Position numbers and translations under genes: made by a program
In this document: positions 2,995 through 33,242 of the stretch, in pieces
How the letters are laid out: each line of letters begins with the position of its first letter
How positions within the stretch are numbered: position 1 is the stretch's first letter
Virus record (IMG/VR): IMGVR_UViG_3300042992_002044
Location: 1-33,776 of that record
Length of the DNA stretch: 33,776 bases
Direction: 5' to 3' (one strand)
Source of the DNA: a virus
The notes under the pieces: generated by a model
What the model was told of the DNA's origin: nothing
Seen by the model: only the letters and a program-made list of their open reading frames with translations
Databases searched by the model: none

Positions 2995-2995
2995 A

Positions 2996-3643: not shown

Positions 3644-3649
3644 TTTCTT

Positions 3650-3787: not shown

Positions 3788-3855
3788 AGGCAATATTGTA
3801 TATCTCCTAAAGAGATGAGTCTTATCTAATCTAACAATGTGATGAAAACTTGCAG

Positions 3856-3883: not shown

Positions 3884-3888
3884 CTGCC

Positions 3889-4038
3889 ATGATAATCTTT
3901 CTTTCAATTTCAGTGGCAGTAATTGCTTCCCTGCATACATACCTTATGCGTTCCATTGACTCCTATGACAGGTATGGCGCTCAGCACACACTTCAGGAAT
4001 GGCGCGACTTTGAGAGGTCGCATTCAGTATTCCAATAG
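3889..4038 (+). CDS. Small single-pass membrane protein (49 residues)
   Basis: From ATG at 3889 the product starts with a hydrophobic helix (MIIFLSISVAVIASLHTYL) and ends with a charged tail of about 30 residues rich in Arg, Asp and His. It is likely a one-pass membrane peptide with the tail in the cytoplasm. A TTG start at 3850 would add 13 residues, but it overlaps the putative promoter and lacks a ribosome site. The gene diverges from the other small membrane gene at 3650-3787, with about 100 bases between. Function unknown. Confidence 0.5.
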   Translation: MIIFLSISVAVIASLHTYLMRSIDSYDRYGAQHTLQEWRDFERSHSVFQ

Positions 4039-4071
4039 TCAGTTTTCGTTTTTATTTACCTTGGTGAGACA

Positions 4072-4704: not shown

Positions 4705-4787
4705 GTTGACCCAACCCTAGTGCATGGCTCACCCCCACAGAATGAAGGTTGCATTTTAGGGATTTTCTTTGTACTAAGGTTTTCTGT

Positions 4788-10986: not shown

Positions 10987-10990
10987 AGAT

Positions 10991-15491: not shown

Positions 15492-15574
15492 GTTGTTCAC
15501 TCCTAGTGAATTGGATTTGGTTGGTGATTACTTATGTTTTTATTGCAGACTTCGGTAAGCACCTAGTCCAGTTA

Positions 15575-15624: not shown

Positions 15625-16899
15625 CTATAAAATCAGACTATTTGAGTAATGTCGTTTGACCACTTTTGGGCAACATCCTTTGGAATATTTGACTCCGTAT
15701 TCGCCTTCTTGGAATCCAACCCACTTTTTGCTCGTTTTACGGTTCCTCCATGGGTGATCCAACGGAAGTAGATCGTTGTCATCAAAGTATTTTACATCGG
15801 CTGGTTTGTCGGAGTTCAGCAACGCCAAAAACTTGTAGACACGCTTCTTTGCAACATCTTTTGAACCATCTTCCAAGCCTCGTAAGAACACTATTTTTAG
15901 GTCACGAAGGTTAGTTTTTGCTGTAGGTTTTGCTTTGGCGTTGTTGTTTCTTACTCGTACAGCCAAATCGTTGATATCGCTACTAGTCACGGTTGGTGGC
16001 TTCTTCTTAGGTTTTGGAACACCCTTAAAAGAGAGCACCCCCTCCCCGAATAAAGACTTACCCGGATTTGGGTACTGTGCAGCCTGTTGATTATGCAGAT
16101 TCCGTGCATATGTATCGGCATCTTGTATGTTTGAAAACTTACCTAAATGCTGACCGCTTCTTTGGTAGTGCTTAATGGCTTCTCGGTCGCTTACTATTAC
16201 GCCACTCCCATTAGGTCTTTTGATTACCGTAGGGATGACAACAGCCGTATTCCCTTCGGTGATTGTCATGGAACGAACCGTGCTGATAGACCCGTCGCGA
16301 TTTTTCACAACAGGGCGATTATTTAAATCTATATTGCCTTTGGTTATTTCACCCTTTGGTCGTTTCTCCTGTTTAGGTGAAACCCGTGTATCATCTGCAC
16401 CACCCGGTGTGGACGCAACATAGCCGTCACCGTCGCCATCAATTGGTTTATTCCCACTACTGTCAACAGAACCACCAATGGGTGTACCTAAAACTTTTTT
16501 CCCAAATTTGGAACCTTGTCGTCTTGGGTTGTTCCTAGGGCTGTTATCCCCTCGGATACCTGTTACACGGTTGTAGTCAGACACATTCGTGCAAGGAAGC
16601 CAAACCAGTTTTCCATCCCGTGCCGTATAGCGACGAATACCTATACATCCAAGATTGCGTGCACGGATACGGGCAGACTCAGGGTCACTGAAAGTATCAG
16701 GGTCTGTGGAACGGCTAACAAAGTTAACGAAACCCTTCTGCTCTACAGGTTTTTCTAAAGTCTGCTTTTTGTTCATGCCTTTGATGTACTCGGCAGGATT
16801 TTGATTTTTCACTATTGTAAAGTAATAAAAATCAGCCTTCTCGGCAGGGGAGAAGGTCTGTATCAGAGAGGCTAATTCTCTTGATTCTTTTGGTGTCAT
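15625..16899 (-). CDS. Modular virion-type protein with GC-G-C, DGDGDG and NRPVVxNxDGSISTVRS modules
   Basis: The 424-residue protein shows domains in order: a helical start; a Cys module at about 84-103 (LGCIGI ... VWLPC); a linker GKKVLGTPIGGSV then the calcium-binding-like DGDGDGY at 154-160; then, at about 190-276, a module (NNRPVVKNRDGSISTVRS ... HLGKF ... LHNQQAAQY) that I recognise from internal virion and cell-wall-degrading proteins of many phages; and a basic C-terminal domain of unknown type (residues 300-424). No catalytic residues are identified. It overlaps the preceding gene by four bases (ATGA). Shared modules with the 431-residue neighbour argue for common targeting. Likely packaged or tail-associated; this is inference. 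Confidence 0.75.
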   Translation of the reverse strand: MTPKESRELASLIQTFSPAEKADFYYFTIVKNQNPAEYIKGMNKKQTLEKPVEQKGFVNFVSRSTDPDTFSDPESARIRARNLGCIGIRRYTARDGKLVWLPCTNVSDYNRVTGIRGDNSPRNNPRRQGSKFGKKVLGTPIGGSVDSSGNKPIDGDGDGYVASTPGGADDTRVSPKQEKRPKGEITKGNIDLNNRPVVKNRDGSISTVRSMTITEGNTAVVIPTVIKRPNGSGVIVSDREAIKHYQRSGQHLGKFSNIQDADTYARNLHNQQAAQYPNPGKSLFGEGVLSFKGVPKPKKKPPTVTSSDINDLAVRVRNNNAKAKPTAKTNLRDLKIVFLRGLEDGSKDVAKKRVYKFLALLNSDKPADVKYFDDNDLLPLDHPWRNRKTSKKWVGFQEGEYGVKYSKGCCPKVVKRHYSNSLIL

Positions 16900-18191
16900 T
16901 CTGCACTCTCCTCAACAGCAAGCATTGACCTATCAAGAATAAGAATCACATTTGGCGAAACAGGGGAGCCAGAAACATCAGCAACAAATCCGTTGGAAAC
17001 TCTCAAATTCAACCTAGAACCTCTTACCCCTTTAGAGACCAAAACTCTCCCGATATCGTCATCCCCATAAAAGGATGTTATTCCCTTTTTCACTCTCTCG
17101 CGATGTCCTGTTACTTCATCTGCGAAGTCTTCGCGTTCCATCAAAAAATCTGGAGGGATAGCAACTTTTATAACTTCACCTTTTCTTAGATTCCCCTGAT
17201 CGTCAAACCCACCTTCGGCATAAACCTCGGCACTTTCTCTGTCTAGTGAGAAATGTATACCGTTACCGTGAGCACCCAATCCTGCAAAATAATCACCTTT
17301 TCTGAAACCATCTGCCAGATCTTTGGCTTCAACAATAACTTCGTCATTTTCTGTATCAACGATGCTTGCAATCCCGCGATACGCAATAGTCCATCCCTTT
17401 TTTTCTAGACTTGCCATTTCCAAAGATGAAACAACTTTTGGTAGACCTGTAAATCCCTGCATCTCAGCAATCATTTCCAATTGAATATCAGGCTTAACAT
17501 CATTTTTTATTTTACTGAGTCTTTTGTTGTACTCTTTTCCGCCGTCTGATTTTTTGAATTCCTGAGCGTCTTTGCCAAAAAGTTTTCCCAATTGTTTTGT
17601 TATGTCTTTAGCCATTTTATTTTTACTATTCGCGATCGTGCTAGGAGCAACAGGAATATTGTCTTCTCCGTCGGGACCAGTAGTGAACCCGTCGCTATCG
17701 CCGTCAAACTCTGCTACACCACCAATAGGGCGACCTAAAGACTTGCCGGAAAACGAGCCAGTTACAAGCCCACCACCCGGCAAGGTTGCGATACCAGAAA
17801 TAGGTTTCTCGTCAAGGTTCTCCCAACCCCGTTTGGGTGCTTTGTGGTTGCAAACCGCATAATACTTTTTCCCTGCAAGAAGGATCGTTCGGACACCACC
17901 ACAACCACGAGCCTTAGAAATAGCGACAGCATCAGCACGATTCTCGTAATATGCATCAGACTTTGTTTCTAAACGCTTTGTCCTTTGAACCATTTTGGGC
18001 AACGGCTTCTTCTTTTTGGAAGCACGAACTTTCAGGTATTCGTCTTTACCTTTTTTGATTGCTTCATATTCTTCACGCGAGGCGCAAGGCATCCAGCCTT
18101 TACCGTCTTCGTATACGCCTTGGCATCCAAGCATGCGTGCAACACGAAGAGCCTGATCGCGCGTTGTTTTATTCTTCTCGTCTTCAGACAT
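16896..18191 (-). CDS. Modular protein with an ADP-ribosyltransferase-like C-terminus
   Basis: The 431-residue protein begins with two GC-G-C modules (LGCQGV...WMPC at 22-36; RGCGGV...YYAVC at 95-114). A GKSLGRPIGGVAEFDGDSDGF segment at 149-169 matches the neighbouring protein. The C-terminal half has features of the ART fold: YRG at 271-273 (NAD-binding Arg), DYFAGLGAHGNGIHFS at 300-315 (the G-x-G-I-x-F-S strand) and AEVYA at 321-325, as in ART-like domains fused to phage MuF proteins. A clear catalytic Glu (ExE) is not seen, so activity is uncertain. If active it would ADP-ribosylate host proteins, as T4 Alt does. It overlaps both neighbours by one to four bases. Confidence 0.75.
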   Translation of the reverse strand: MSEDEKNKTTRDQALRVARMLGCQGVYEDGKGWMPCASREEYEAIKKGKDEYLKVRASKKKKPLPKMVQRTKRLETKSDAYYENRADAVAISKARGCGGVRTILLAGKKYYAVCNHKAPKRGWENLDEKPISGIATLPGGGLVTGSFSGKSLGRPIGGVAEFDGDSDGFTTGPDGEDNIPVAPSTIANSKNKMAKDITKQLGKLFGKDAQEFKKSDGGKEYNKRLSKIKNDVKPDIQLEMIAEMQGFTGLPKVVSSLEMASLEKKGWTIAYRGIASIVDTENDEVIVEAKDLADGFRKGDYFAGLGAHGNGIHFSLDRESAEVYAEGGFDDQGNLRKGEVIKVAIPPDFLMEREDFADEVTGHRERVKKGITSFYGDDDIGRVLVSKGVRGSRLNLRVSNGFVADVSGSPVSPNVILILDRSMLAVEESAE

Positions 18192-18454
18192 TATTCTTTT
18201 TCTTTTTTAGATATTTTTTCAACCTCTGAAGCATATTCCATAGACATCGCGTACTGATCAAATAGTTCATCTATTTTGTCCGCATTCTCTTTATTCATCA
18301 GATATGAGACCATTGACTCAAGGTCGCCATCTTTTCCGTTTTCGTTTGCATACCCGTAGGCAATGGCAATAATTTTAGAACGTGTTTCAGGGTTCTTTAC
18401 TGTCGTTAGCAGTTGATTTTTGATTGAGTTTTTTTGTTCTGTTGTGAGTTTCAT
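18191..18454 (-). CDS. Small helical partner protein (87 residues)
   Basis: This is an all-helical, charged protein (KLTTEQKNSIKNQLLTTV, MSVEYASEVEKISKKE-like C-terminus). It overlaps the 931-residue gene by one base at TAATG and the ART-like gene in the same way, so it is translated in step with both. It is the fourth small gene found directly after a large modular gene in this operon. A chaperone or immunity role is inferred from position only; no family is recognised. Confidence 0.7.
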   Translation of the reverse strand: MKLTTEQKNSIKNQLLTTVKNPETRSKIIAIAYGYANENGKDGDLESMVSYLMNKENADKIDELFDQYAMSMEYASEVEKISKKEKE

Positions 18455-21249
18455 TACGCCAACCTTGGTGGTTCTACTCGTATTCTAGGGCGAGCAATTT
18501 TTGCTTTCTTGGGAAGTTTCTGACCAATTTTTTGTTCAGCAAAAGATAGCGTTCCACCACCAAATCCAAGATTTGCTTTAAACCATTGTTTCACATATTC
18601 CATCTTTTCCCTGTCACCAGTAGGATCATCCAAAGCAAAGATTATGTCTTGATGCTGATACTGCTTACCACCTCTTGCTTGTGCAAGGATTGATTTGATT
18701 CGCGCATATTCTGCGTCATTATTTATCAATCCGCCAGCACCAAAATCCTCATAAAATTTGAGAGGCGACTGAAGCACTTGTAGGTCTCTATCGGTCAAAC
18801 CATAGTTTCTTTTGAATCCAACACGAGCCCAAACATACTGACCATCATCGGCTGCGTTCACATTTGCTTTAGTGACACCTATTTGCTTCAGATAGAGAAA
18901 CGCATGTTGGTTATAAATTGTTTGAATATCAGCACCCCTATCAATTTTGCTTGTTACAAACATTGAATTTTGGCTTACGATACCCTGCGACACGCTTACG
19001 CTCCGAGACGAAGTAGCGATTTTTGCTCTTATAACTTCACCATTTGCGTTAATCTCGTCAAACTGAACCTGAACTTGAAACCCATTTTGGGGAGACACTG
19101 TTGCCGTAGCACGGTAAAGTTTCCCGTTCTTACCTTCAATTCTTTGGTGAGAATAAGCCTGTTTCAAGTACTCTGCCTTTTGCGGAGCAGTGAGTCTTCC
19201 CCATTTTACGGGTGTCATGTCTTCATATGGTGCACCACCGTTTGGGTGCCGTTGCTTAAGATACTTAGCAAGTTTTCCTTGACGACGTTCAATCGCCTCG
19301 TTCACCTGATCATTGATCTTCTTCGCTACATCTTCTGGAAGCGGTCTAGGAATATTTGTTGCATCTGTGTTGAAAACAAAACCTTGTTTCCTTCTTTCTG
19401 ATGCTTTCCGTATTTCTGGTCCTAATGCTTCTATCAACTGAATATGACCTTCATATTTTCCAATATCGGATTGCAGTTGAGCAATTTTTTTCATTGTTTC
19501 AACACGGTTGAATTCTTTTACTTCTGGAGTATTGCCAAGAGGTGAACGCATAAGTCTGAATTCTGCGCTGAGTTGTGTTTCTAATTCCGCAAGTTTGGTT
19601 CGCGCACCTGCAACTCCACCTTGCGGTCTTACATATCCAATATATTTTCTTTTCGCTTCGGTAACTAAAGCCGATACATCAGCATTGGGATTTGCCCTCA
19701 GTAAATCTGCAACTCTTGAAAGTTCTTTTTGGAAGTTTCGTACCGCAAGTTGGCGACCTTCATTTTGGTTAAACAGTGCTTGATCGGCTGCTAAGCCAAG
19801 TTGTCCCAAAAGTTTTGGATCTCGCATTTGAAGTAATACTTCTTCAATAAGATCTTCATCTTCTTTTTTGAATTTCGCCGCTTCCATCTTGGGGGCAACA
19901 TGCTTTAGTTCATCTGGCACATCCCTAACATCGCGTCTTGTCGGAGCATTGAAAGGTTCGTCAATTGGGTTTGGCACGCTTGACGGTTTCGGGGCAGGTG
20001 TTTCTCTTCTGTCGGAAGGCAGTTTATTGTGTTTCTCTACTTCTTTCCAAGCATTGATAACGTCATTGAGTTCTTCTTTTAATTCACGCACATTCATTTG
20101 TTCGTTTGCACCAGAAACAACATCAAGGGGACTCAAATCACCCCTATTCTGTGCTTGCTGTATGCGATCAAGTTGTGCTTGATGTATCAAAATATTTCTT
20201 TTTGCAAGGTTTAGAGCGTTTGACCTTGGGTTCTGATCTGTTTGATTTATATCAGGGAAGTTAATTGGATCGTTTATTATTCTTAAACGTGCGTTCAATA
20301 CATCTCTGTTGATTCGTTCAACAAAAGTTTCATCATTTAGCACATTATTCAAGTTCATGTGCCTTATTTTTTTGGGGCGAGCAGCCTCTGCCCTAACCTC
20401 TTCGGAACGAGCGGCATTGTCGCTTTCTCCGCGTGGAGCAGGTCGCGGAACTCGTCTTTGTTCTGATTCGGCATCAAGCATCGCACCAATGTCGCCTTCG
20501 GGTTTCTTTCTAGGGCGACGAGGTTTAACCACCTTTGGTTCTACAACTGGTTTTTCAACAATGTTTTGTGCTTGTTGTCTTGGTGCTTTAGGCTTGTTTG
20601 TTGCTTCAACAACTGCACGACGACGGCGACGAGCAGGTGCTTCACCAGTACGAGGTGCACCGGGTTGTTCAATCTCACGATCCATGCGTCGTTGTTCTGA
20701 TTCTCTAACATTTGGCGCACGCCTTCTCTGTGGTGCACGAGGAGCAGGTGGAGTAGGGGTTAACTCTCTTGGAGTGGCAGGTGCATCAACGGATGGTTGT
20801 CGGGTAACAACAGTTCGCCTACGGGCACCACGAGGACTTGGGGTATCGGAAACTTCTAATCTGTCTGCAACACCACGCAAACCTCGCTCTAGGCGACCTG
20901 CGCCACCGCTTTGAGGATTAAGTCTTGCAAGTATTCGTCGTTCACGACGAGCAATACGACGACCACGGCGAGCATCATCAACATTCTCTAAGCGTTGACC
21001 AATATCTGATATTTGATTAGCGATGCGTCGTGCGACACCCCAACCGCAAGACCGACCAAAGCGATCGGTTATCTGTCCGCCATACCGTGTCCCCGTTGGA
21101 CAGCGCCAGCCTCCACGACGGTTGGTGCCGGGTATAGAAAGACTTGGATCCCACATGGCGCGAACAGCCTTGACTTCATAAGCAATAGTTGACGTGTTCC
21201 GTTCGCTAAGAAAAGATTTTGCCTTAAAGTCGGCGATATTCTGAAGCAT
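18454..21249 (-). CDS. Large modular protein A: shared Cys module, Pro/Arg linker, coiled coil, unknown C-terminus
   Basis: The 931-residue protein has at 33-92 the shared module (WDPSLSIPGTNRRGGWRCP, GGQITDRFGRSCGWGVARR). A disordered Pro/Arg/Ala/Glu-rich linker (about 100-290) contains RMDREI and QPGAPRTGE, also found in the 890-residue paralogue. Charged helices and probable coiled coil cover about 290-620. The C-terminal domain (620-931) is folded and unrecognised, with DGQYVWARVGFKRNYGLTD and QDIIFALDDPTGDREKM as notable motifs. There is no kinase core, unlike its relatives. ATG at 21249 has AAGG eight bases upstream. Probably a capsid-packaged cargo protein with its own enzymatic domain; this is inference. 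Confidence 0.78.
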   Translation of the reverse strand: MLQNIADFKAKSFLSERNTSTIAYEVKAVRAMWDPSLSIPGTNRRGGWRCPTGTRYGGQITDRFGRSCGWGVARRIANQISDIGQRLENVDDARRGRRIARRERRILARLNPQSGGAGRLERGLRGVADRLEVSDTPSPRGARRRTVVTRQPSVDAPATPRELTPTPPAPRAPQRRRAPNVRESEQRRMDREIEQPGAPRTGEAPARRRRRAVVEATNKPKAPRQQAQNIVEKPVVEPKVVKPRRPRKKPEGDIGAMLDAESEQRRVPRPAPRGESDNAARSEEVRAEAARPKKIRHMNLNNVLNDETFVERINRDVLNARLRIINDPINFPDINQTDQNPRSNALNLAKRNILIHQAQLDRIQQAQNRGDLSPLDVVSGANEQMNVRELKEELNDVINAWKEVEKHNKLPSDRRETPAPKPSSVPNPIDEPFNAPTRRDVRDVPDELKHVAPKMEAAKFKKEDEDLIEEVLLQMRDPKLLGQLGLAADQALFNQNEGRQLAVRNFQKELSRVADLLRANPNADVSALVTEAKRKYIGYVRPQGGVAGARTKLAELETQLSAEFRLMRSPLGNTPEVKEFNRVETMKKIAQLQSDIGKYEGHIQLIEALGPEIRKASERRKQGFVFNTDATNIPRPLPEDVAKKINDQVNEAIERRQGKLAKYLKQRHPNGGAPYEDMTPVKWGRLTAPQKAEYLKQAYSHQRIEGKNGKLYRATATVSPQNGFQVQVQFDEINANGEVIRAKIATSSRSVSVSQGIVSQNSMFVTSKIDRGADIQTIYNQHAFLYLKQIGVTKANVNAADDGQYVWARVGFKRNYGLTDRDLQVLQSPLKFYEDFGAGGLINNDAEYARIKSILAQARGGKQYQHQDIIFALDDPTGDREKMEYVKQWFKANLGFGGGTLSFAEQKIGQKLPKKAKIARPRIRVEPPRLA
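20974..21153 (-). repeat. Shared Cys module, copy 1 (coding)
   Basis: This encodes residues 33-92 of the 931-residue protein. At the protein level it is nearly identical to the copies at 23826-24005 and 27256-27435, while the DNA differs at many third codon positions. Confidence 0.9.
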
Positions 21250-21252
21250 GGT

Positions 21253-21564
21253 TTAAGCCTTAAAACTTTTTTTATTTGGAAGAGATTTAATTTGATTTTT
21301 ATACATTTCTTCAGTTACTTGCCCATCAGAACTGTATTGTGCGGACATTGAATTAAGACGGTAAAGAATATATTCCATTCCGCTTCCCTCTAAAGGGATC
21401 TCGTTTCGTGCCGACGATTCTGAAAGAATTTCAATAAGTTGATCAACAAGTTCTTTATCGGAAGCGTGTATTTCTACAAGTCCATCAATATTTTTTCCAG
21501 CGCAAGACCCATTTACCTTGTTTGTAAATGGATCCATGAATTGACCTATAAAAAACTCTTTCAT
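21253..21564 (-). CDS. Small acidic partner protein (103 residues)
   Basis: It is unrecognised, with an alpha/beta start (MKEFFIGQFMDPFTNKVNG), a mid part with HASDKELVDQLIEILSES and a Lys-rich end. ATG at 21564 follows AAAGG with a five-base spacer and begins two bases after the stop of the 955-residue kinase-like gene; a GTG at 21570 would overlap it. The next large gene follows after three bases. As with the other small genes, it may be a chaperone, regulator or immunity protein for the upstream gene product; the evidence is positional. Confidence 0.7.
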   Translation of the reverse strand: MKEFFIGQFMDPFTNKVNGSCAGKNIDGLVEIHASDKELVDQLIEILSESSARNEIPLEGSGMEYILYRLNSMSAQYSSDGQVTEEMYKNQIKSLPNKKSFKA

Positions 21565-21566
21565 GA

Positions 21567-24434: not shown

Positions 24435-24437
24435 TGT

Positions 24438-24518
24438 TTACTTTCCACATTCGTGAAGATATTCAGCAAGCCATGCAAATCTTGAGGTTGCATTATCGCT
24501 ACCGTAAAATGGTATCAC
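24438..24518 (-). CDS. Possible tiny ORF (26 residues) in the operon's 122-base gap
   Basis: GTG at 24518 opens a frame ending in TAA three bases before the ATG of the 955-residue gene; the product contains IPFYGSDNATSRFAWLAEYL and a Cys near the end. The frame is open about ten codons further upstream without a start codon. Because every other junction upstream of this point in the operon, as far as the scaffold gene, is almost gapless, this could be a real peptide, a leader, or a remnant of a larger gene. There is no ribosome site. Confidence 0.25.
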   Translation of the reverse strand: MIPFYGSDNATSRFAWLAEYLHECGK

Positions 24519-24556
24519 TAAGTGGGTGATATTAATTTTAGGTTGATGTCAATATA

Positions 24557-24853
24557 TTATTTGTTATCTAATTTTTTGTGACCCAAGGCAACTAGGAAAT
24601 TATTAATTTTATCCTTATTTGAACCCTTGTACTCAAGTATTTCTGCATGACGGTATGAGTACCCATGCAACATACTCTCAAGGTCAGCCCTATCCGACGA
24701 GCCTTTCTTGACCGCCAAAAAGTGTTCATTGTCCTTTTTGTCTGAATCTTTATCCTTTGAGTAATACTTAATAATCCCTTTATCGTCCTCAACTATGACG
24801 AGTGGATCCACCTGAACTAGTGGGTCTTTGGAGGTGATGATCGCTGCTCTCAT
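24557..24853 (-). CDS. Small charged partner protein (98 residues)
   Basis: The product begins with beta strands (MRAAIITSKDPLVQVDPLVI) then a Lys/Asp-rich middle (YYSKDKDSDKKDNEHF) and a helical end. Its N-terminus resembles that of the 105-residue protein at 29243 and the first 30 residues of the 955-residue kinase-like protein (M-hydrophobic strand-D-P-V strand-G). It starts five bases after the 890-residue gene. Probably a partner (chaperone or immunity) of that protein; function inferred from position. Confidence 0.7.
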   Translation of the reverse strand: MRAAIITSKDPLVQVDPLVIVEDDKGIIKYYSKDKDSDKKDNEHFLAVKKGSSDRADLESMLHGYSYRHAEILEYKGSNKDKINNFLVALGHKKLDNK

Positions 24854-24858
24854 GGTTC

Positions 24859-27531
24859 CTATGATCCTATAATCAAATCAGCAAGTCTGCCGGGGTCAAC
24901 ATCTGTTATATATTTCATTTTTCTTTGCGGTTTTACGCCAACCCTCAAAAGAGCCTGATCCCCACCCCTAGGGTTAGCGGTTCCATCCCCACCGGCTTTC
25001 AGTACATCTTCAACAACATTCATATACGGGTTTTTACGCTCTGCCTCACGGATGGACTTCTGAACCTCTTCAACGGCTAAGAGTATCTCGCGCCGACTTA
25101 TTTGCCTATCTTTGAATTGCTGTCTCAATGTTGCAAGCATCTCGTTTCTTCTACCACCAACATCGTTGCCTAAAAAGCCTCGTAATCCTTCGTCGTTGCC
25201 ATCATAATTTTCGTGAGCCCGCCCACCCCAGTTGACATCAAACCCAAGAGAAGGATCAATTGGGACGAACCGCTTCTTACCACTGGAGTCAGTCGCTACA
25301 AAGAAGTTCCCTCCATGGCGGTCTCTGTTGACCATGATGTAGTCCAAAAGTGTCGCTCTAACACGATCGGCAGGTTTTATTTGCGACACGGCTACTTGAT
25401 TTCTTCCGTCTGTCAGCACCCCATCAACGTAGTTCCCTGCGTGTTCATAAACAATAGCCCTACCAGCGCTGTTAGGGGCACCCGGTCCACCTTTTTGTTT
25501 CCCATCCATTCGCACACCACCGACAGGCATGCCAAGTCTACCAGCAAGATTATTGCCGATCACTTCATGAATGTCTTCGTTTTCTGCATGGGCACCACTT
25601 TGGTATTTTAAGAAAAACTTGTTCCCAGTGATGGCGTCGGTAAACATATGCATATTGTTGGGAATGTTGCCGTTAACACCACCACCAGCATCTGATTTAG
25701 AGAATCTTGTTGTTGCACCGTGTAGTGCTTCACCCAATAACTCATCAGGGACATCAGCCAAATCTCCACCTTTTTCTAGGTGGTCAATTGCTTGCTCCTT
25801 GGTATCCATACCTTTGTTCCCCAATGGAACGCTTTTCACATCAGGCAAACCGTCTTCACCTAATTTGTTCAGTTTTTCTGGTGCATGACCATCTTTTGCT
25901 TTTGGTGGTGAGACATCCCATCCACCTTCTGGTTCTGGTATGTCTGCTGGTCGTTGTGGTGGTTGCGCTGGTGACTGTACGCGTGGAGCGTTCTGGTCGT
26001 TGACATTATTATTTGGTACAACAACTTGATTTCGTTGCCTAAATTCAATAGCAGCATCAATTTCAGCAAGTCTTAATTCGGCAGCGGAAACTCCGTCTTT
26101 TATTTTTTCTTTTTGTCCCCACATTCGCAATAAATTATCTCTGGCTTCGTCTCTTTCTCGTTCGCTACCATTCTTTTTACTCTGCCAGTCTTCAAAGGCT
26201 CTATCAAATCCTGCTTGAGCCTCTTTGAGAAGTTCTTGATCTCTAATTTTCTTTCCCAAAACTTCTTCTTTGGACATGTTGCGCAAATTATTGTAAGCGT
26301 TCGGCTTGTATCTTTCAATTTCCCCTTCTACTGCTTTGACTAAAGCCTCGTCTCTTTGCTGGTCAAACTCCCTGCGAGGGTTTATGTCTCTTGCTGGCAG
26401 TGGCGGTGGACCTGCTCGTCGTGCAGGTGCTTCAGGTTCAGGCTGTGGCGCTCCTGCTTGTTGCCCAAATATTTGTTGGTTAACAAAATTGCCACGAGCA
26501 TTACGCTTATTGTTGTCATCGTAATACCGACCAAACCTTCTCTCTAGTTCGGCTTTTTCTTCGCCTTCAGGGAAGTCTGGTTTACGCCAATACGCATCTT
26601 CGGGTAATCCGCGAAGATCGCCAAATCGGTTAACAACATTACGGATAGAACGATCGTCCGGTATGCTCCCTCCCAACTCGTCTGCTGTTGGGTTCCATGC
26701 GGGTGGTGGTGGAATTGGTGATGATTGTTCCGCTGGTCGTTCTGGTGGTTTTGGTGCGGGTTTTCTGCGTGGCACCTTTGTCGGTACAGGTTTTGAACCG
26801 TCAACAAAATCTGCTTCAGGTTTTCTTCTAACAGTTCTTTTTGCGCCTTGTTGTGTAGCGTTTCGTCGGCGTCGTCGTGGAGCATTTGGTGCGGGTGGTT
26901 CACCTGTGCGTGGTGCGCCGGGTTGAACTATTTCTCTGTCCATTCTTCGTGCTTCTGATTCACGGAGATTTCCTCTTCTCCGAGGTGCCCGTGCTGGTTC
27001 TCTTGCTGGTTGTTCAGCATCTCCGCCAACAGGGATTCTTGGACGAGCAGGAGGTTCTATGCGTGCAGGATTTTGAACAGCGATTCGTGGACGAGCAGGA
27101 GCGCGTGGAGTAGTTACTGGTTTTCCAGTTGCTCCACCATCTAACGCGTCTGCCAAACCGCGAGCGCCACGCTCAAGTAAGCCGGGTTTATCTTGACGAG
27201 CCAAAAACCGTTGCACACGCGCATTCCGTTTTGCCAAACGAGCATTTCGTTTACGGTCGTCAACATTCTCTAGCCGTTCACCAATATCTGCTATCTGGTT
27301 TGCGATTCTCCGAGCAACACCCCACCCGCAAGACCGTCCATAACGGTCTGTAATTTGACCGCCGTATCTTGTGCCAACAGGGCAACGCCAACCGCCACGA
27401 CGATTCGTGCCCGGAATAGACAAACTTGGATCCCAAAGCGCACGAGCGCCTTTAACATCATAATTAAAAGTACTTGCAGTTTGCTCAGCGAGAAACGCGA
27501 GCGCCTTGTAATTCACTTCATTCTTGAGCAT
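24859..27531 (-). CDS. Large modular protein C with PI3/4-kinase-like domain
   Basis: The 890-residue protein carries the shared Cys module at 33-92 and a Pro/Arg/Ala linker with RRMDREIVQPGAPRTGE, matching protein A. Helical/coiled regions span about 390-530. The kinase-like C-terminus contains TKEQAIDHLEKGGDLADVP, a candidate ATP-binding Lys in NKFFLKYQSG, catalytic NRDRHGGN (D737, H739, N742) and D759 in VPIDPSLGFD, followed by NWGGRAHEN as in protein B. All core residues of the DRHxxN/D pair are present, so activity is plausible. Its ATG follows directly on the stop of the 572-residue gene, and a 98-residue gene follows after five bases. Confidence 0.85.
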   Translation of the reverse strand: MLKNEVNYKALAFLAEQTASTFNYDVKGARALWDPSLSIPGTNRRGGWRCPVGTRYGGQITDRYGRSCGWGVARRIANQIADIGERLENVDDRKRNARLAKRNARVQRFLARQDKPGLLERGARGLADALDGGATGKPVTTPRAPARPRIAVQNPARIEPPARPRIPVGGDAEQPAREPARAPRRRGNLRESEARRMDREIVQPGAPRTGEPPAPNAPRRRRRNATQQGAKRTVRRKPEADFVDGSKPVPTKVPRRKPAPKPPERPAEQSSPIPPPPAWNPTADELGGSIPDDRSIRNVVNRFGDLRGLPEDAYWRKPDFPEGEEKAELERRFGRYYDDNNKRNARGNFVNQQIFGQQAGAPQPEPEAPARRAGPPPLPARDINPRREFDQQRDEALVKAVEGEIERYKPNAYNNLRNMSKEEVLGKKIRDQELLKEAQAGFDRAFEDWQSKKNGSERERDEARDNLLRMWGQKEKIKDGVSAAELRLAEIDAAIEFRQRNQVVVPNNNVNDQNAPRVQSPAQPPQRPADIPEPEGGWDVSPPKAKDGHAPEKLNKLGEDGLPDVKSVPLGNKGMDTKEQAIDHLEKGGDLADVPDELLGEALHGATTRFSKSDAGGGVNGNIPNNMHMFTDAITGNKFFLKYQSGAHAENEDIHEVIGNNLAGRLGMPVGGVRMDGKQKGGPGAPNSAGRAIVYEHAGNYVDGVLTDGRNQVAVSQIKPADRVRATLLDYIMVNRDRHGGNFFVATDSSGKKRFVPIDPSLGFDVNWGGRAHENYDGNDEGLRGFLGNDVGGRRNEMLATLRQQFKDRQISRREILLAVEEVQKSIREAERKNPYMNVVEDVLKAGGDGTANPRGGDQALLRVGVKPQRKMKYITDVDPGRLADLIIGS
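27256..27435 (-). repeat. Shared Cys module, copy 3 (coding)
   Basis: This encodes residues 33-92 of the 890-residue protein. Compared with copies 1 and 2 the residues are almost unchanged but many codons differ, so the copies are old and kept by selection. Confidence 0.9.
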
Positions 27532-29250
27532 TTATTTTTTCTTCTTTGCGCTGACCAAGTCTGGCTTAATGAAGGTTTCGTACTGCCAACGAGGTGCTGT
27601 TCTTTCAATACCGTCAAGACCTGTGTAAGTAACAAGTTCCAACGGCTTAGGAACATTTCCTGTATCGGTGATAAACTTAAATGCACCTTCTGAGTTTTTG
27701 GCAAAATTCTCAATATTTGAAATAATGTTATCTTTTGTGCTTGATTCTGCAAGAGAGTTAATCATTCGTGGGAACTTGCGCTTCTCGCCAATCGTAAATG
27801 GTCGTGAACGCTCAATACTTACCACTACACCGTTTGGTGCAACAAACGCAATTTTACTCATTGAAGGACCACCCAATAGTGCCAGATCATCTGCTCCTAT
27901 ATCAGCAGGTAGTTGAATGGCGCGAACCATTGCGCCGTCAACCATGTCAGGGTTCTCGCTAAAAGAACGAAGAACAGATGAAGCAACAACAGGACGCAAA
28001 ACCACTCCGTCTCTGCGGATCATTCTGCCTTCACCTTTTGGTGCGCCTTTAAGCAAGTTGATTGAATCCGATACTGAACGGTTGAATTTATCTTTTTGGA
28101 ATGCACCTGTTCGTGGTATCTGTGCCATGCGCTGAATTTGAATTGTTCGCGCTGCTGTCGGTGAACCTTCTAATACTTCGGACAGATTCTCTGCTCGCGC
28201 TTGTGGAAGTTTTGGTGATGCTGTCGGGCGCATTGCTCGCCTTATGAGTTCTAGCGGACCTGGTATTTCAAACAACTGCGCACCACAAGTGGAGAAACGA
28301 TTGTCCGTGAAACGACCACCAAATTCAAAACCGGCAGGGCATCGTGCTTGACGCCTGCGATTAGGCTTGAGCCTGCTGAGCGCCCCACCGCCACCGCCGG
28401 GAATAAGTGCGCCATAAAGTCTTGAGCGAATAGGTGCGCTGAATGGGGATATGTTGCCCGGTGTTACTACAGAACCAACTGCCTGAGCCGCTCTACCAAG
28501 TCCACTTGAAGAACCAACAAGACCTGCTTTGATTTCCATGTCTTCAGCGTCATCTTTTTCAACACGGTATCCACCGCCACGCTTCTTGTATTCGCGAACA
28601 AGCCAAGCGTTAGCGTAAGCAGAAGGGTATACATTGAATTTCTTTTTTGCTTCGGCTTTTACTCGCGCATAAAGTTCTTTGTCCGTTGGGATATTCGCAC
28701 CTTTTAATGTGGTCTCATCAGATTTGAATGTGGACACATTGATCGGCTTGTTTTCTTCTCGGTTACCCGCTGTTTCTGCACGACGCTTTCTGCGAACAGC
28801 GGAATCAATTTCTTCTGCGGACATTCTCATCGCTGTAGATTTCTTTACACACTTAGGGTATTTACCTGAATCTGCGTCTCCGCGACCACATGACTCAAAT
28901 CCGCCACCTTTTTTCGGGCGTGAAATATCAACCCATTCTTCTTCAAACCATTTCCCTAATCCACCGCGCTTGGATTCATCACCGATAAAGGTTTCTGCAC
29001 CTAGTTTTGATGTACGAGACTTTAGGTAAAGTTTTGCTTTAAAGTTTAGAAGAGCCCTACTTCCGTCAAGCGGAGTTTTACGAACATCTGATCCTTTAGT
29101 GAAAAGGAATTTTGTTTTTGCATTATCAGGGTTAAAATAAATTTCCTCACCAGAGACAATATTCGTCCGTTTCATAGCAGTTTTCATACGCATAGACATA
29201 CGGAGTTTTCTCGCAAAATACTCAAAGTCTTGGTTGAGATAACTACTCAT
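27532..29250 (-). CDS. Modular protein D: DUF5872-like region plus a divergent Cys module
   Basis: The 572-residue protein has at about 99-230 the features of DUF5872-type proteins: KWFEEEWVDISRPKKGGGFE, CGRGDADSGKYPKC, then VYPSAYANAWLVREYKKRGG at 208-227; these occur in many phage and giant-virus proteins of unknown role. KAGL at 241-244 precedes a Gly-rich stretch. A divergent Cys module follows at 303-323 (RCPAGFEFGGRFTDNRFSTCG). The last 200 residues are unrecognised and end in Lys residues. The N-terminus has the FKAKLYLKSRTSK-type segment seen before the module in proteins A-C. It overlaps the upstream small gene by eight bases. Probably part of the same cargo set. Confidence 0.75.
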   Translation of the reverse strand: MSSYLNQDFEYFARKLRMSMRMKTAMKRTNIVSGEEIYFNPDNAKTKFLFTKGSDVRKTPLDGSRALLNFKAKLYLKSRTSKLGAETFIGDESKRGGLGKWFEEEWVDISRPKKGGGFESCGRGDADSGKYPKCVKKSTAMRMSAEEIDSAVRRKRRAETAGNREENKPINVSTFKSDETTLKGANIPTDKELYARVKAEAKKKFNVYPSAYANAWLVREYKKRGGGYRVEKDDAEDMEIKAGLVGSSSGLGRAAQAVGSVVTPGNISPFSAPIRSRLYGALIPGGGGGALSRLKPNRRRQARCPAGFEFGGRFTDNRFSTCGAQLFEIPGPLELIRRAMRPTASPKLPQARAENLSEVLEGSPTAARTIQIQRMAQIPRTGAFQKDKFNRSVSDSINLLKGAPKGEGRMIRRDGVVLRPVVASSVLRSFSENPDMVDGAMVRAIQLPADIGADDLALLGGPSMSKIAFVAPNGVVVSIERSRPFTIGEKRKFPRMINSLAESSTKDNIISNIENFAKNSEGAFKFITDTGNVPKPLELVTYTGLDGIERTAPRWQYETFIKPDLVSAKKKK

Positions 29251-29560
29251 TTTTTGCCGATTCTTTCGGTTCTTCAGGTTCCGCTATTTCTGCGGGCAAG
29301 GTTGTCTTCCACTTTTTAGCCAACTGCCTTAAAAGTGTAATATTTTTTTCATCCAGCACATTAGTACTAACACTATGATACGACATTCCCGAGGTTGCTT
29401 TTTCAATAGTGTCCCTTTGGGACAGAAACAATTCGTTTGTCAAACTTGATGCGAACTTCGGGTCAGGGGCTACCACACCAAAAATGCCGTAATCCCCCTC
29501 AAGAAGAACATATGGGATACCTGAAACATCGGCACTCGGGGTAACTAGGGCGTATCTCAT
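29243..29560 (-). CDS. Small partner protein (105 residues)
   Basis: This is an alpha/beta protein starting MRYALVTPSADVSGIPYVLL and ending in an acidic tail (AEPEEPKESAKNE). Its start overlaps the kinase-like gene at 29557 by ATGA, and its end overlaps the 572-residue gene by eight bases. The N-terminal pattern resembles those of the 98-residue small gene and of the 955-residue protein's extra domain. It may be the cognate partner of the kinase-like protein upstream. No family is recognised. Confidence 0.7.
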   Translation of the reverse strand: MRYALVTPSADVSGIPYVLLEGDYGIFGVVAPDPKFASSLTNELFLSQRDTIEKATSGMSYHSVSTNVLDEKNITLLRQLAKKWKTTLPAEIAEPEEPKESAKNE

Positions 29561-31398
29561 ACAACACTCGCGACTATATCTTCCAACGCTGAGTCAGCCT
29601 TGAGTTTTGGTGGTTTTACAACAAGGTCTGCCAATTGTTTTGGGGTCATTGCTTGCATCTCTCTTAAGCGTGACGACGCCTTTCCGATGTCTGCCTGCAT
29701 CTTTTCCATTTCTTTCAACTTTTCGGGAGACATCGCCCATTCTCCTATCAAATTACGATCTTTCAGCATCTCGTCAAGTTGACTCAAGAGACGATTTTCC
29801 AATGAATCTGCGTCAATTTTCTTTATATCTTGGAGAACTTTTTCAGCATCCTCAACCAGTTTTGCATGCTTCTCAACTGTCCCACCGTGGCGACTATTCA
29901 GTTCTTGACCAAGATAACCATATTGAAGACCGCCAGCAAACTTTTCTGCTGTTTCGCTGAAATCAAAAACGTTGAGAATAAAACTATGGTCAATGGGGAC
30001 TGCGTCCACACCATCAGAGTTTTCAGCAAAAAGGATGTTTCCGCTATGCCTGTCACCATTAGCCATAGCAATATCCATGATTTGCATATGGAGTAGTTTG
30101 CGACTGTCCACCTTTGCCAATGTTTCAGGGGTGGCAGAGAGTATTTGTCCCTCATATGAGTTGTGAACCAAATCGGTTACTACTCCCATGGCTGCCTGTG
30201 TCGGGGATGCTTGAACAACTCGCAAAGATGAAGATGGATACCCAAAGTCTTCTGTCATGGAAACAGCAAGAACTTCGCTCGCTGGCTCATACCATCGGGA
30301 TGCTCCTCCCTTGGTCAGAGGGGCATTGCTTAACGGGGATTTTTTATCCCAAAGTTGTGTGCGTGAAGCGTATTTAACGCCCAACATTTGACCTGTAGTT
30401 CTATCACGCAAGCGGTTCATTCCAACCACTCCCCCACCAGTGCCAATAAGTTCAAACCTCTTCAGTTCCGCAATGTTCCCATCCTCGTCGTAAACATCAA
30501 TATTTTCTAGGATTGCGTCAAGAACCAGAGTGTCGCTGATTTCGTTCAGTTTCCCGCCATTAGCGATATGTTGTGAAGCCTTTTCACCAGTATCAATGTT
30601 TTTATCCACGCTAGGTAAATCACGGGCAATGTTCCTACCGTTGGCATCAGCAACACCAATTTGTGGGTCAAAGTCTTTAGCCTTGGCAATAGCGCTGTTG
30701 CCTTTCTTGAACCCGCTAGGGGATTTGACCACGGGTGGATCAGCCTTTGGATCGTCTTTTTTATCTTTGCGACGCTTTAATGTCGCTAAGAGGAAATTCT
30801 TTGCATCAACGGTGGCGTCTCGTTTAATCTTCCCCGCTACTGCTTCCAACTGTTCTTTTTTCTTGTCAGATATTTTCCCGCGCCTATGAAGCGAGTCAGT
30901 AGCAAAGTCCAATAGTTGCGCACCGCCAGACTTCAATAAAACCATACCGAAAAGCGTAGATTGTGTCATTGAATCTGAACCATCTGCGTACATGTAATCC
31001 ATTGTTTGCAGGGCAATCATCGCCGCTGCTTTTGAACCATTTTTTACTTTTTCAGATTTGAAAATTACCCGAGCGCCATCAATCAATTTTCCAGCCATGG
31101 AAGCCGCCCCGCGTGCTGCTGATTCAGCAGAAGGGGTGAGGCAGTTGGACATCTGCATGTCGGTGAACTGATTTGCGTTAGGTGTACCGGGTGGGCATCG
31201 CAACTTACCCAAAGAATCAACTATCACCCCCGCAGCACGCGCCGCTCTATGACCAACAGAGGTTAACTCTGGTCGGTCTTTTACAGTAGGTCCAAGGAAA
31301 CCTTTGAACAGCAAAACATTCTCTTGAACAGCAGCAACAGATTTGCGGTATTCTGCAACTCTCTCGTTTGCGTCAAAAGCGCGAGACGATTTAATCAT
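29557..31398 (-). CDS. Modular protein E with PI3/4-kinase-like domain
   Basis: The protein has 613 residues from ATG at 31398 (617 if TTG at 31410 is used, directly after the previous stop). It lacks the long Pro/Arg linker. At about 67-86 it has a divergent Cys module (RCPPGTPNANQFTDMQMSNC). After helical segments comes the kinase-like part: TGEKASQHIANGGKLNEIS, a Gly-rich GTGGGVVGMNRL, a candidate Lys in MLGVKYASR, catalytic NGDRHSGN (D449, H451, N454) and D470 in VPIDHSFIL. The end has AMTPKQLADLVV, echoing the end of protein C. It may be the simplest form of this kinase family. The next small gene overlaps by ATGA. Confidence 0.82.
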   Translation of the reverse strand: MIKSSRAFDANERVAEYRKSVAAVQENVLLFKGFLGPTVKDRPELTSVGHRAARAAGVIVDSLGKLRCPPGTPNANQFTDMQMSNCLTPSAESAARGAASMAGKLIDGARVIFKSEKVKNGSKAAAMIALQTMDYMYADGSDSMTQSTLFGMVLLKSGGAQLLDFATDSLHRRGKISDKKKEQLEAVAGKIKRDATVDAKNFLLATLKRRKDKKDDPKADPPVVKSPSGFKKGNSAIAKAKDFDPQIGVADANGRNIARDLPSVDKNIDTGEKASQHIANGGKLNEISDTLVLDAILENIDVYDEDGNIAELKRFELIGTGGGVVGMNRLRDRTTGQMLGVKYASRTQLWDKKSPLSNAPLTKGGASRWYEPASEVLAVSMTEDFGYPSSSLRVVQASPTQAAMGVVTDLVHNSYEGQILSATPETLAKVDSRKLLHMQIMDIAMANGDRHSGNILFAENSDGVDAVPIDHSFILNVFDFSETAEKFAGGLQYGYLGQELNSRHGGTVEKHAKLVEDAEKVLQDIKKIDADSLENRLLSQLDEMLKDRNLIGEWAMSPEKLKEMEKMQADIGKASSRLREMQAMTPKQLADLVVKPPKLKADSALEDIVASVV

Positions 31399-31410
31399 CG
31401 CCTCAACCAA

Positions 31411-31740
31411 CTATTTGTCGCTAGATTCTGACGCTTTGTTAAAGAAAGAAAGTGGAACAACATCATCATCCTCTGCATCTTTTTTCTTAGAAGGCTTTTT
31501 CGTTTCCACTTTGGTTTCTTGTGCATCCTCAACAGGTTCATCAACGCTGATCTCTACTGATGCAGGTGTTTCAACTTCCAACACTGCTTCTTCAACGACA
31601 ACTACTTCCTCTTTGACTTCAACCTCAACAACAGAAATCTGAACTTCAGGCGTCTCAACTACGGGCACTTGTTCTTGTTTTGTGTCAAAAGCAAGACCAG
31701 AAGTGTTCACTGAGTCAAAAGGTTGGTTTTCTTTTTTCAT
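31411..31740 (-). CDS. Acidic low-complexity protein (109 residues)
   Basis: The product is dominated by Val, Glu, Asp and Pro (VEVEVKEEVVVVEEAVLEVE) with a Lys patch (KKPSKKKD) and a C-terminus VPLSFFNKASESSDK. It is likely disordered. Its start overlaps the scaffold-like gene by TAATG. Acidic proteins beside capsid genes are often scaffolding or capsid-packing helpers; it could also be a DNA mimic. Function unknown. Confidence 0.65.
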   Translation of the reverse strand: MKKENQPFDSVNTSGLAFDTKQEQVPVVETPEVQISVVEVEVKEEVVVVEEAVLEVETPASVEISVDEPVEDAQETKVETKKPSKKKDAEDDDVVPLSFFNKASESSDK

Positions 31741-33068
31741 TAAATGTCGCCAAGACCTGTTTCAATTTCAAGCATTTCAAGTTCCATCAAACTGCTTAGG
31801 AACTCTTTCGCTTCGTCATCCAAAAGAGTCTTTTCTTCCGACCATTCGGCAGGAATCATGTCTTCTTTGTCAAGTTCCATTGCACGCTTCTTGATGTGTG
31901 CTTTTGCTTTTTCTTTATCTTTTGCGCGACCGTAAGACATGATTGCGTTCTTCAAGTCTTCTTCGTCCTTGATTGGGTATGAGCCGTCTGGCAAAGCCAT
32001 TCCGCCCTTAGCCATTTCGTCACGCTCATCTTCGCTGTACATTGCCTTAAGGGCAACATCGGCTACTTCTGCATCAATGTCTGCGGCTTCTTCAGGATCG
32101 TATTCATCAAATCCGAGGATTTCACCGTCAACACCAACATAAACATCGTATGACTTTCCGTCTACGCCTTCAATTTCTACAGCGTAAGCGTCGTAACCAT
32201 CAAACATATCTGCGTCTACAGAAACAACTTCGCCTTCAATTGACTTGGTTGCAATATCTGAAGCCTCACTGAACGAGATTACTTTTTGTCCGGGTACGGT
32301 TGCTACTTCACCGATCAAATCTTCATTCAAAAGGTGCCAGCCCATGCACTCGCCTGACGAACCGTCAAAGTAAGCCTCAACTGGCTTTCCATCTTTGCGT
32401 TGAACATCAACAACAAAAACATCAACTTCGTCCGCGTAGCCAGAGTCAAGAACTTTTCCTGCGAACATGCTCTCTGCCATTCCTTCAATTTCAAGAAGAC
32501 TTGGCATTGTGTCTTGTTGTTCACATCCACCTGGGCATGATGCACAGATTTCTGAACCACCCGCATAGACGCGACGCTCAATGGCGCAAACAAAAGCAAG
32601 ATCGTCGTAGTCAGCAGACTTGACACCCATTGTTTCCATGCGCTTAGCGCGAGCCTTCTTGCGTTGCTCCATCATCTTTTCAATCTCGCTGTACATCTTC
32701 TCTTCTTCATCATCAAGATCTTCAGGCATGTCTTCTTCGTCGTCTTCTTCTTCCATATCCACGACTTCAGTAGGCTTCTTTTTCTTTTTTGCAGGAGCAG
32801 GGGTCATTCCCTCTTCCATCATTGCGAGATCTTCTTCCATCTTTGCTCCCTTTTCGTCTGAAGCGGTAACCCACTCAGATTTTTCGGTTGCTACTTCTGG
32901 TGCTGCGTCAGCAGGTACGGCTTCTTCCGTTTGCGTGACAGCCTTCGCTCCACACTTGCCACAAACTTTTGCGCCGGGCTTGTAGCCACATTCTGTTAAC
33001 TCCAAACCTTTGGCGCATTCAATTCCGCCGTCTGCAAGAAGTTTTACTGTTGGTGTTTCGCTAGCCAT
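31740..33068 (-). CDS. Scaffold-like acidic protein with PepSY-like and LPDGSYPI/HIKKRA modules
   Basis: From ATG at 33068 (AAGGAG eight bases upstream) the protein has 442 residues. It shows a Cys-rich start (IECAKGLELTECG, KVCGKCG), a very acidic middle (EEEDDEEDMPEDLDDEEEK), a CxxCPGGC segment, then two repeats resembling PepSY domains, one ending SYDVYVGVDGEILGFDEYD, and a C-terminal LPDGSYPIKDEEDLKNAI ... AHIKKRAMELDKEDMIPAEW. The last is a module I know from the C-termini of phage prohead proteases and scaffolds. It would guide capsid assembly. The frame stays open upstream to ATG 33218, adding 50 Cys-rich residues without a ribosome site; either start is possible. Confidence 0.75.
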   Translation of the reverse strand: MASETPTVKLLADGGIECAKGLELTECGYKPGAKVCGKCGAKAVTQTEEAVPADAAPEVATEKSEWVTASDEKGAKMEEDLAMMEEGMTPAPAKKKKKPTEVVDMEEEDDEEDMPEDLDDEEEKMYSEIEKMMEQRKKARAKRMETMGVKSADYDDLAFVCAIERRVYAGGSEICASCPGGCEQQDTMPSLLEIEGMAESMFAGKVLDSGYADEVDVFVVDVQRKDGKPVEAYFDGSSGECMGWHLLNEDLIGEVATVPGQKVISFSEASDIATKSIEGEVVSVDADMFDGYDAYAVEIEGVDGKSYDVYVGVDGEILGFDEYDPEEAADIDAEVADVALKAMYSEDERDEMAKGGMALPDGSYPIKDEEDLKNAIMSYGRAKDKEKAKAHIKKRAMELDKEDMIPAEWSEEKTLLDDEAKEFLSSLMELEMLEIETGLGDI

Positions 33069-33216
33069 GTTCGTGGACTCCTTGTAGTGCATTGTTTTTG
33101 CAATACACTTTGTTGGATTAGAGCAAACAGAGCATGGCGTCAAGCGTTTATCGCCTGACATCAGACACTGATATTTTGCTGTTTTTTGTGGTAAACCTGT
33201 TATTGAAGTATAACCC

Positions 33217-33242
33217 ATATTAGTGTTTTGTTTTTGTTACAA
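33217..33242 (-). promoter_or_regulatory. Weak promoter-like sequence before the scaffold gene
   Basis: On the minus strand TTGTAA (33242-33237) and TAATAT (33222-33217) are separated by only 14 bases. If used, transcription would start after the ATG at 33218 and favour the start at 33068, leaving a leader of about 140 bases. Confidence 0.2.

Follow-up and report, generated by a model that had tools for sequence, protein, structure and literature searches.

Enzymes and small partner genes exchanged as cassettes between the scaffold and capsid genes of uncultured phages

A few model phages (T4, P1, and N4) provide the known cases of proteins that enter the host cell along with the DNA of the phage, and to our knowledge the choice of head cargo is understood for very few phages. 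The internal proteins of T4 are a diverse defense set with only the capsid targeting sequence (CTS) in common (PMC3012670), and P1 has six or more Dar proteins (PMC12810830). Among the domains of polyvalent proteins, ArdC-N and MPTase-PolyVal are the two most frequent (PMC5512222), and MuF toxins are associated with a temperate lifestyle (PMC5576092). Here we analyze one IMG/VR record, IMGVR_UViG_3300042992_002044 (33,776 bp; hereafter the window, with positions counted from its first letter), in which seven large minus-strand open reading frames (ORFs) of 424–955 amino acids, occupying ∼16 kb, separate a scaffold gene from the gene for an HK97-type major capsid protein (MCP). Comparison with related phages shows that an enzyme and its small partner move from phage to phage as a single cassette. 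This suggests that the head of the virus is loaded with a variable assortment of enzymes, which are injected with the DNA.

The ORFs and strands of this region are as a sequence-only reading of the window had described them: about 16 kb in one orientation, nearly gapless, with large products of 617, 572, 890, 955, 931, 431, and 424 amino acids. The intervals between ORFs are at most ∼125 bp, and overlaps occur at many junctions. Five small ORFs (87–109 amino acids) lie around and between the large ones; they were absent from that reading, yet they are relevant, four of them as partner genes (Table 1). Five of the seven large proteins share a short cysteine-containing tag, T1 (consensus RCPPGTxxGGQFTDxxGSxC, or in a looser form RCPxGTxxGGQFTDxxxSxC), and the two that lack it (ART16896 and P15625) make up the MCP-adjacent slot.

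The exchange is clearest in close relatives. In a phage whose MCP is 97% identical to that of the window (G001), the N-terminal parts of K21567, P18454, and ART16896 are 89%–100% identical to their counterparts; the C-terminal domains of K21567 and ART16896 either differ or show hardly any relationship, and for P18454 the identity of this domain is just ∼49%. At the DNA level, identity falls from 82%–95% to none at the boundary between tag and enzyme. In another relative (G002), the kinase end of K21567 and the small gene that follows it, s21253, are 95% identical to those of the window, the tag half is 76%–79% identical at the DNA level, and the linker between them is unalignable, a pattern indicative of a recent cassette transfer. 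Wholesale swapping of C-terminal domains was found between phages with 87%–97% identical MCPs. P27532 occupies a core slot that is unswapped in close relatives (82%–95% identity over its full length in G001–G004).

The small genes change together with the enzymes. In eight phages, a small ORF (87–114 amino acids) comes after each K21567-type slot, at a distance of −13 to +19 bp, and it changes with the enzyme. The s21253 gene is present in all three loci that have the K21567 C-terminal domain and absent from five relatives that have the same tag with another C-terminal domain. For s24557 and the C-terminal domain of K24859, the paired identities (in percent) are 99/99, 74/73, 32/31, and at most 27/none. 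Over 32 slots of four slot types, partner identity follows C-terminal domain identity (Spearman 0.91; partial correlation 0.86 with tag identity held) and follows tag identity weakly (partial 0.34); because the loci are related, these values are descriptive and not exact probabilities. The architecture is thus that of polymorphic toxin/immunity systems, with a conserved N terminus, an exchangeable C-terminal domain, and a small downstream gene, of putative immunity function, that tracks the C-terminal domain.

T1 is confined to the head genes. Its invariant residues, in 30 diverse copies, are two cysteines and one threonine, with a Cys-x17-18-Cys spacing. By hidden Markov model (HMM), T1 occurs 106 times, in 105 proteins from 49 genomes or loci, with two to five tagged proteins per phage. 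We compared the position of each copy with the portal and MCP coordinates: in 16 long records, 52 of 52 copies lay between the portal and MCP genes, an interval that makes up ∼22% of the sequence searched. A T1 DNA pattern applied independently of the MCP occurred in at least 119 stretches of viral contigs and in 2 stretches of a collection of bacterial and archaeal genomes that covers 84,980 species. Both prokaryotic stretches are in one metagenome-assembled genome (MAG), and one of them adjoins a scaffold gene; this Phycisphaerae contig with a T1 tag and a scaffold gene (L236, JASLZV010000001.1) is probably a phage contig binned into the MAG. Head genes (portal, S78 protease, scaffold, or MCP, identified by HMM) accompanied 110 of the 121 stretches, and most of the others were short pieces. 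These counts strongly support the link between shared tags and head operon that had been proposed. One tblastn query (E up to 10) gave no match to T1 in 50,697 phage records.

The MCP-adjacent slot is marked differently, by a DUF3721-type N-terminal tag (in 32 of 36 relatives) and a conserved C-terminal tag. In most relatives the two tags are the two ends of one protein, and the C-terminal tag of P15625 is 67%–92% identical in relatives that have unrelated cargo.

A search with the capsid protein yielded 80 viral loci, and the stretch from portal to MCP was read in 18 relatives. The insertion between scaffold and capsid, for which a search of related genomes had been proposed, is present there, and the slots always come in the same order: portal, S78 slot, scaffold, T1 slot, P27532-type slot, one to three further T1 slots, DUF3721 slot, and MCP. 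The distance between the portal and MCP gene starts is 18–37 kb (median 25 kb), and the interval holds four to nine ORFs of at least 300 amino acids, the largest of which has 990–4736. Peptidase_S78 (the Caudovirus prohead protease) was found in 17 of 17 relatives and a portal (PF04860) in 19 of 20 records; in a near relative (L088:8706-10910), the portal has a C-terminal MuF domain (PF04233, 9.2e-8). The S78–scaffold unit, which in the cultured Gordonia phages is a single protein right ahead of the MCP, is split twice in the window family, into protease plus extension, scaffold, 16 kb of cargo, and MCP.

Read from its right end, the minus strand of the window carries the protease tail, the scaffold-like gene, the large and small ORFs, and the MCP gene. 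The scaffold call is supported by the C-terminal module of the protein, a module that also forms the C-terminal half of capsid maturation proteases in Gordonia phages: residues 391–463 are 61%–63% identical to that half, and the profile of the protein finds the C-terminal halves of these proteases at 1e-34 and 9e-32. The match to phrog_80 is weak. Within the proposed protease–scaffold–capsid context, the scaffold and MCP assignments were confirmed, and a full protease did not, as only its last 162 residues are in the window. The complete Peptidase_S78 ORF (700 amino acids) lies outside it, on a 144,873 bp contig from another sample (IMGVR_UViG_3300034105_003474), on which it is preceded by a 734-amino acid ORF at the portal position. 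Because positions 4494–33776 of the window are 100% identical to this independent contig over 29,283 bp, an assembly artifact is ruled out. The genes have the order of an HK97-type head operon (portal, S78 protease, scaffold, and PF05065 MCP, on one strand), but unlike in the compact HK97-type operon, cargo genes separate the protease, the scaffold, and the MCP from one another.

The three kinase-like cores of the sequence-only reading were borne out as one family by an iterated HMM. Taken individually, the domains match PF00454 at 1e-6, 0.0037, and 0.23, of which one (K29557) is over the cut-off. The conserved lysine, the DRHxxN loop, and the aspartate are intact in all three, consistent with a predicted PI3/PI4-kinase-like fold of the CtkA/HipA type (lysine, DxxxxN loop, and metal-binding aspartate). 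CtkA is the best full-domain match of the kinase profile in the PDB (E 0.0016); matches to ubiquitin were discounted, since they are sums of weak matches over repeats and no stretch of the long chains passed by itself. The family comprises 76 proteins, and each of the 54 loci that have sufficient sequence carries a member. Divergent phages (e.g., L060, L038, and L071) have a near-universal kinase-fold copy in the P27532 slot in which TDQRxR replaces DRHxxN; this copy is probably catalytically inactive and possibly a pseudokinase with a structural role.

Examination of the other C-terminal domains by remote homology and structure prediction succeeded for P18454 and failed for ART16896. The P18454 domain was modeled by AlphaFold with a predicted local distance difference test (pLDDT) score of 89, and its top Foldseek matches are all GNAT acetyltransferases (best E 0.006; GCN5 with probability 1.00 and a root-mean-square deviation of 2.9), so that the model has a GNAT fold. 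ART16896 had been read as having an ADP-ribosyltransferase (ART)-like core, and this was not confirmed. The domain has no Pfam or NCBIfam match, no PF03496 match on two genomes, and no profile match to the VIP2-type ARTs of Gordonia phages, and its AlphaFold model, built from a two-sequence alignment, is unusable (pLDDT 36). We downgraded the VIP2/PF03496-type assignment to a resemblance of motifs. A relative with 92% MCP identity has Arr-ms, an Arr-type ART (PF12120, 6.2e-6), in the slot of ART16896.

Elsewhere in the family, the MCP-adjacent slot holds a Zeta toxin (8 of 36), sigma-70 region 4 (sigma70_r4), or pentapeptide repeats. The protease itself also acts as a slot: in relatives, the S78 ORF is fused to ArdC-N and MPTase-PolyVal (two genomes), to a UvrD helicase (two genomes), or to KTSC, and the fusions reach 4736 amino acids in all. 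Single ORFs of 3462–4736 amino acids occur between portal and MCP in four phages (L105 [G018], L106 [G019], G008, and G012); several have an N-terminal S78 protease, and their sequence is mostly unannotated.

Table 1. Features of the head-gene region of the window
Feature	Position	Strand	Basis
Peptidase_S78 prohead protease, last 162 residues only	33273..33761	-	100% match to residues 539-700 of longer-contig ORF
Scaffold-like protein, 492 aa, ALPDGS-type C-terminal module	31740..33218	-	Profile and Gordonia protease matches
s31411, 109 aa, acidic, after scaffold	31411..31740	-	Sequence
K29557, 617 aa, T1 tag and kinase-like C-domain	29557..31410	-	PF00454 1e-6, over cut-off
T1 of K29557	31060..31227	-	HMM 2e-21
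Kinase-like domain of K29557 (GDRHSGN...PIDHS)	29791..30648	-	PF00454, iterated HMM, alignment
s29243, 105 aa, partner of K29557 kinase C-domain	29243..29560	-	Only where K29557 C-domain present, whole or part
P27532, 572 aa, DUF5872 and CGR modules, T1 tag, conserved C-region	27532..29250	-	PF19197 4.8e-14, phrog_23735 1.5e-15
T1 of P27532	28222..28371	-	HMM 2e-19
K24859, 890 aa, T1 tag, Arg/Pro/Ala-rich linker, kinase-like C-domain	24859..27531	-	HMMs
T1 of K24859	27241..27414	-	HMM 7e-28
Kinase-like domain of K24859 (NRDRHGGN...PID)	25045..25860	-	PF00454 0.0037; profile A4 vs CtkA 3akj E 0.0016
s24557, 98 aa, partner of K24859 kinase C-domain	24557..24853	-	Identity follows C-domain
K21567, 955 aa, T1 tag, Arg/Pro/Ala-rich linker, kinase-like C-domain	21567..24434	-	HMMs
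T1 of K21567	23811..23984	-	HMM 1e-27
Kinase-like domain of K21567 (SDRHGGN...PMD)	21747..22589	-	Iterated HMM 6e-52, alignment
s21253, 105 aa, partner only with K21567 kinase C-domain	21253..21570	-	Co-occurrence
P18454, 931 aa, T1 tag, Arg/Pro/Ala-rich linker, helical region and GNAT-like domain	18454..21249	-	AlphaFold, Foldseek
T1 of P18454	20959..21132	-	HMM 4e-28
GNAT-like acetyltransferase fold of P18454 (model)	18544..19152	-	AlphaFold and Foldseek
s18191, 87 aa, small partner after P18454 C-domain	18191..18454	-	Co-segregation with P18454 C-domain
ART16896, 431 aa, DUF3721-type N-tag and ART-like cargo	16896..18191	-	PF12518 4e-8; tag in 32/36 relatives of slot
ART-like cargo domain of ART16896	16899..17633	-	Motifs YRG and GNGIHFS-x6-A-x2-Y only
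P15625, 424 aa, second half of MCP-adjacent slot; GC-type tag, variable middle	15625..16899	-	C-terminal tag residues 282-424
C-terminal tag of MCP-adjacent slot (P15625)	15628..16056	-	93% DNA identity to G001, slot middle unalignable
MCP, 441 aa, HK97 fold; downstream border of cargo region	14175..15500	-	PF05065 Phage_capsid 7.7e-48, phrog_10 1.2e-65

Outside this region, the window encodes a WhiB-family regulator (885-1256, plus strand; PF02467, 9.7e-13). Since WhiB is present in 13 of 13 long relatives and a tyrosine integrase in 0 of 13 records (serine integrases were not searched), the hosts are probably actinobacteria and the phages probably virulent; a temperate lifestyle is unsupported. 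The family consists of uncultured aquatic viruses, with actinobacteria as their probable hosts. As to a contractile tail, no Pfam sheath was found in the 13 records, in a type of search that a divergent sheath would escape. Two genes overlap at 10441-11932 (plus strand): one resembles dual-specificity phosphatases (PF00782, weak, 0.0046), and the other belongs to the histone-deacetylase family (PF00850, 3e-16). Close relatives have similar-sized ORFs at the equivalent place; as a speculation, such a phosphatase and deacetylase near kinase and acetyltransferase effectors could reverse their marks. The window also encodes a ribonucleotide reductase with a B12-dependent insertion domain (7665-9593, minus strand; PF17975, PF02867, PF21995) and an N6/N4 DNA methyltransferase (5121-6497, plus strand; PF01555, 2.2e-43). 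DUF6321 and DUF5872/CGR short modules occur in a minus-strand gene at 13332-14093 and in P27532, and those of P27532 have short matches in proteins of Pelagibacter, Roseobacter, and Synechococcus phages that are annotated as of unknown function.

We consider it probable (roughly 70%) that the operon encodes effectors that occupy several slots, are packaged in the head, and are co-injected, and that each of them has its own inhibitor or chaperone. Each slot protein would consist of an assembly module (the T1 tag, the DUF3721/GC tag with its C-terminal tag, or the S78 prohead protease), usually a linker rich in arginine, proline, and alanine, and an exchangeable C-terminal enzyme. The tags would bring the slot proteins into the procapsid together with protease and scaffold, and the proteins would be retained in the head and then be injected with the DNA. 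The linkers of K24859, K21567, and P18454, in which proline, alanine, arginine, and glycine make up 40%–47% of residues, would be flexible and may contact DNA. Once in the cell, the kinases, acetyltransferase, and other enzymes would modify host targets or block host defense in the first minutes. The small partner, whose pairing with the enzyme is observed, would, as a cognate inhibitor or chaperone, prevent the enzyme from doing harm in the producing cell or keep it fit for packaging there. The fusion of the S78 protease to ArdC, MPTase, and helicase cargo supports packaging independently and is the strongest argument for it, as the protein that carries the cargo belongs to the procapsid.

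Several points weigh against this reading. Packaging and injection are predictions from the genes. Position and tag are linked to assembly and could mark transient core proteins that are removed at maturation. With the kinase family present in every locus of sufficient sequence, and with a dead-looking copy in the P27532 slot of divergent phages, some of its members may serve a structural role. The ART identity of ART16896 is unconfirmed beyond its motifs, and because T1 is absent from the cultured phage records searched, nothing biochemical can be transferred from them.

The most serious alternative, which we judge improbable, takes up the structural possibility for the whole set: the tagged proteins would be inner-core or scaffold-like assembly proteins of an unusually complex procapsid, their enzyme-like folds largely structural, and would be degraded or expelled at maturation. 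The tight linkage to portal, protease, scaffold, and MCP is in line with this, as are the full-length conservation of the P27532 slot and the kinase-like domain without catalytic residues in divergent phages. However, the swapping of C-terminal domains between phages with nearly the same capsid protein is unexpected of structural parts, the three kinases of the window keep their catalytic residues, and ArdC, Zeta toxin, sigma region 4, and UvrD occur among the cargo. Somewhat less probable again is that the enzymes are morons, made in the infected cell and left unpackaged, whose genes came to lie in the head operon accidentally or so as to be expressed late. Cassette exchange and mobile small partners are typical of morons, and the Gordonia phage ChisanaKitsune and phage Cantare carry genes for an RNA ligase, a VIP2-type ART, and HNH between portal and protease; but morons would not explain tags that are shared and found nowhere else in the genomes, slots that are fixed across 18 genomes, or cargo fused to the prohead protease.

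It has also been proposed, for freshwater actinophages with VIP2-like ARTs, that phages act as a “Trojan horse” (PMC6802176), with toxins that lysis or grazing sets free and whose targets are eukaryotic predators. The existence of this proposal, the ART-like slot, and the aquatic origin make it applicable to the present family, but we regard it as very improbable, as the ART identity fails the family tests, family searches identified nothing resembling a translocation or receptor-binding part, and most of the family cargo (ArdC, UvrD, sigma region 4, GNAT, and kinases) points to the bacterial cytoplasm.

Beyond the packaging of co-injected effectors, we offer tentatively, at a little below an even chance, a more general proposal: that these virulent phages have a capsid-borne delivery system in which tag-defined slots of the head operon each hold an exchangeable effector with its cognate inhibitor or chaperone, giving a changeable set of virion enzymes. 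On the same tentative footing, this would be the counterpart, in a phage head, of polymorphic secretion effectors; its packaging tag would be new, and the prohead protease itself would carry giant cargo. If this is true, head cargo could be predicted from sequence by means of a short candidate packaging tag, natural swaps, and cognate partner genes; the family would provide a catalogue of first-minute takeover and anti-defense enzymes from phages of abundant uncultured aquatic actinobacteria; and T1 could serve as a tag for loading proteins into phage heads.

The sequence-only reading had called a set of several packaged enzymes a new arrangement. Packaged sets have precedents in the T4 internal proteins and Alt, in P1 Dar, and in polyvalent proteins (PMC3012670, PMC12810830, PMC5512222), and what stands as new is the tags, the carrier, and the multiplicity of slots; the exact multi-slot tagged arrangement was not found in the literature searched. 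The T4 internal proteins and Alt are likewise diverse proteins, unified by the CTS, that enter the scaffolding core and are injected with the DNA (PMC3012670, PMC5512222). The tags of the window family (T1, DUF3721/C-terminal tag, or S78 protease) appear to be different from the CTS, its proteins are much larger and modular and have a co-swapped small partner gene, its head is of the actinophage HK97/S78 type and not the T4 gp21 type, and the packaging of its proteins is a prediction.

Polyvalent proteins (Iyer et al., 2017) and P1 Dar resemble the family in having MPTase-PolyVal and ArdC-N, which here occur in giant protease fusions, in their kinase, GNAT, and Zeta-type enzymes, and in their head-gene context (PMC5512222, PMC12810830). 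The polyvalent hub domains are present in two relatives (G018 and G019) and in none of the seven large proteins of the window. The family differs in having several tagged slots per operon, each with one variable enzyme module that is swapped with a partner, and its kinases are PI3/4K-CtkA-like with DRHxxN, whereas a protein kinase without a C-lobe is described for polyvalent proteins (PMC5512222). MuF polymorphic toxins (Jamet et al., 2017) share a conserved N-terminal head-assembly part, a variable C-terminal enzyme, a small downstream ORF, and a location in the packaging module (PMC5576092). MuF was found as an N-terminal toxin carrier in none of the seven large proteins, and in L088 it is at the portal C terminus; the window family also differs from MuF toxins in its lack of a tyrosine integrase (13 records) and in its several slots per phage.

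Among cultured phages, Gordonia ChisanaKitsune/GMA6 and Brevibacterium phage Cantare have the nearest MCP (46%–48%), portal, and S78 protease. They also carry extra genes, including a VIP2-type ART, between portal and protease; the protease directly precedes the MCP, the Gordonia protease is fused with the scaffold module, and no T1 tag, kinase, or GNAT of the window family is present in their head genes. By analogy, the window family would work like the CTS-bearing internal proteins of T4, P1 Dar, and MuF and polyvalent proteins, with no claim of membership in the T4 or P1 system.

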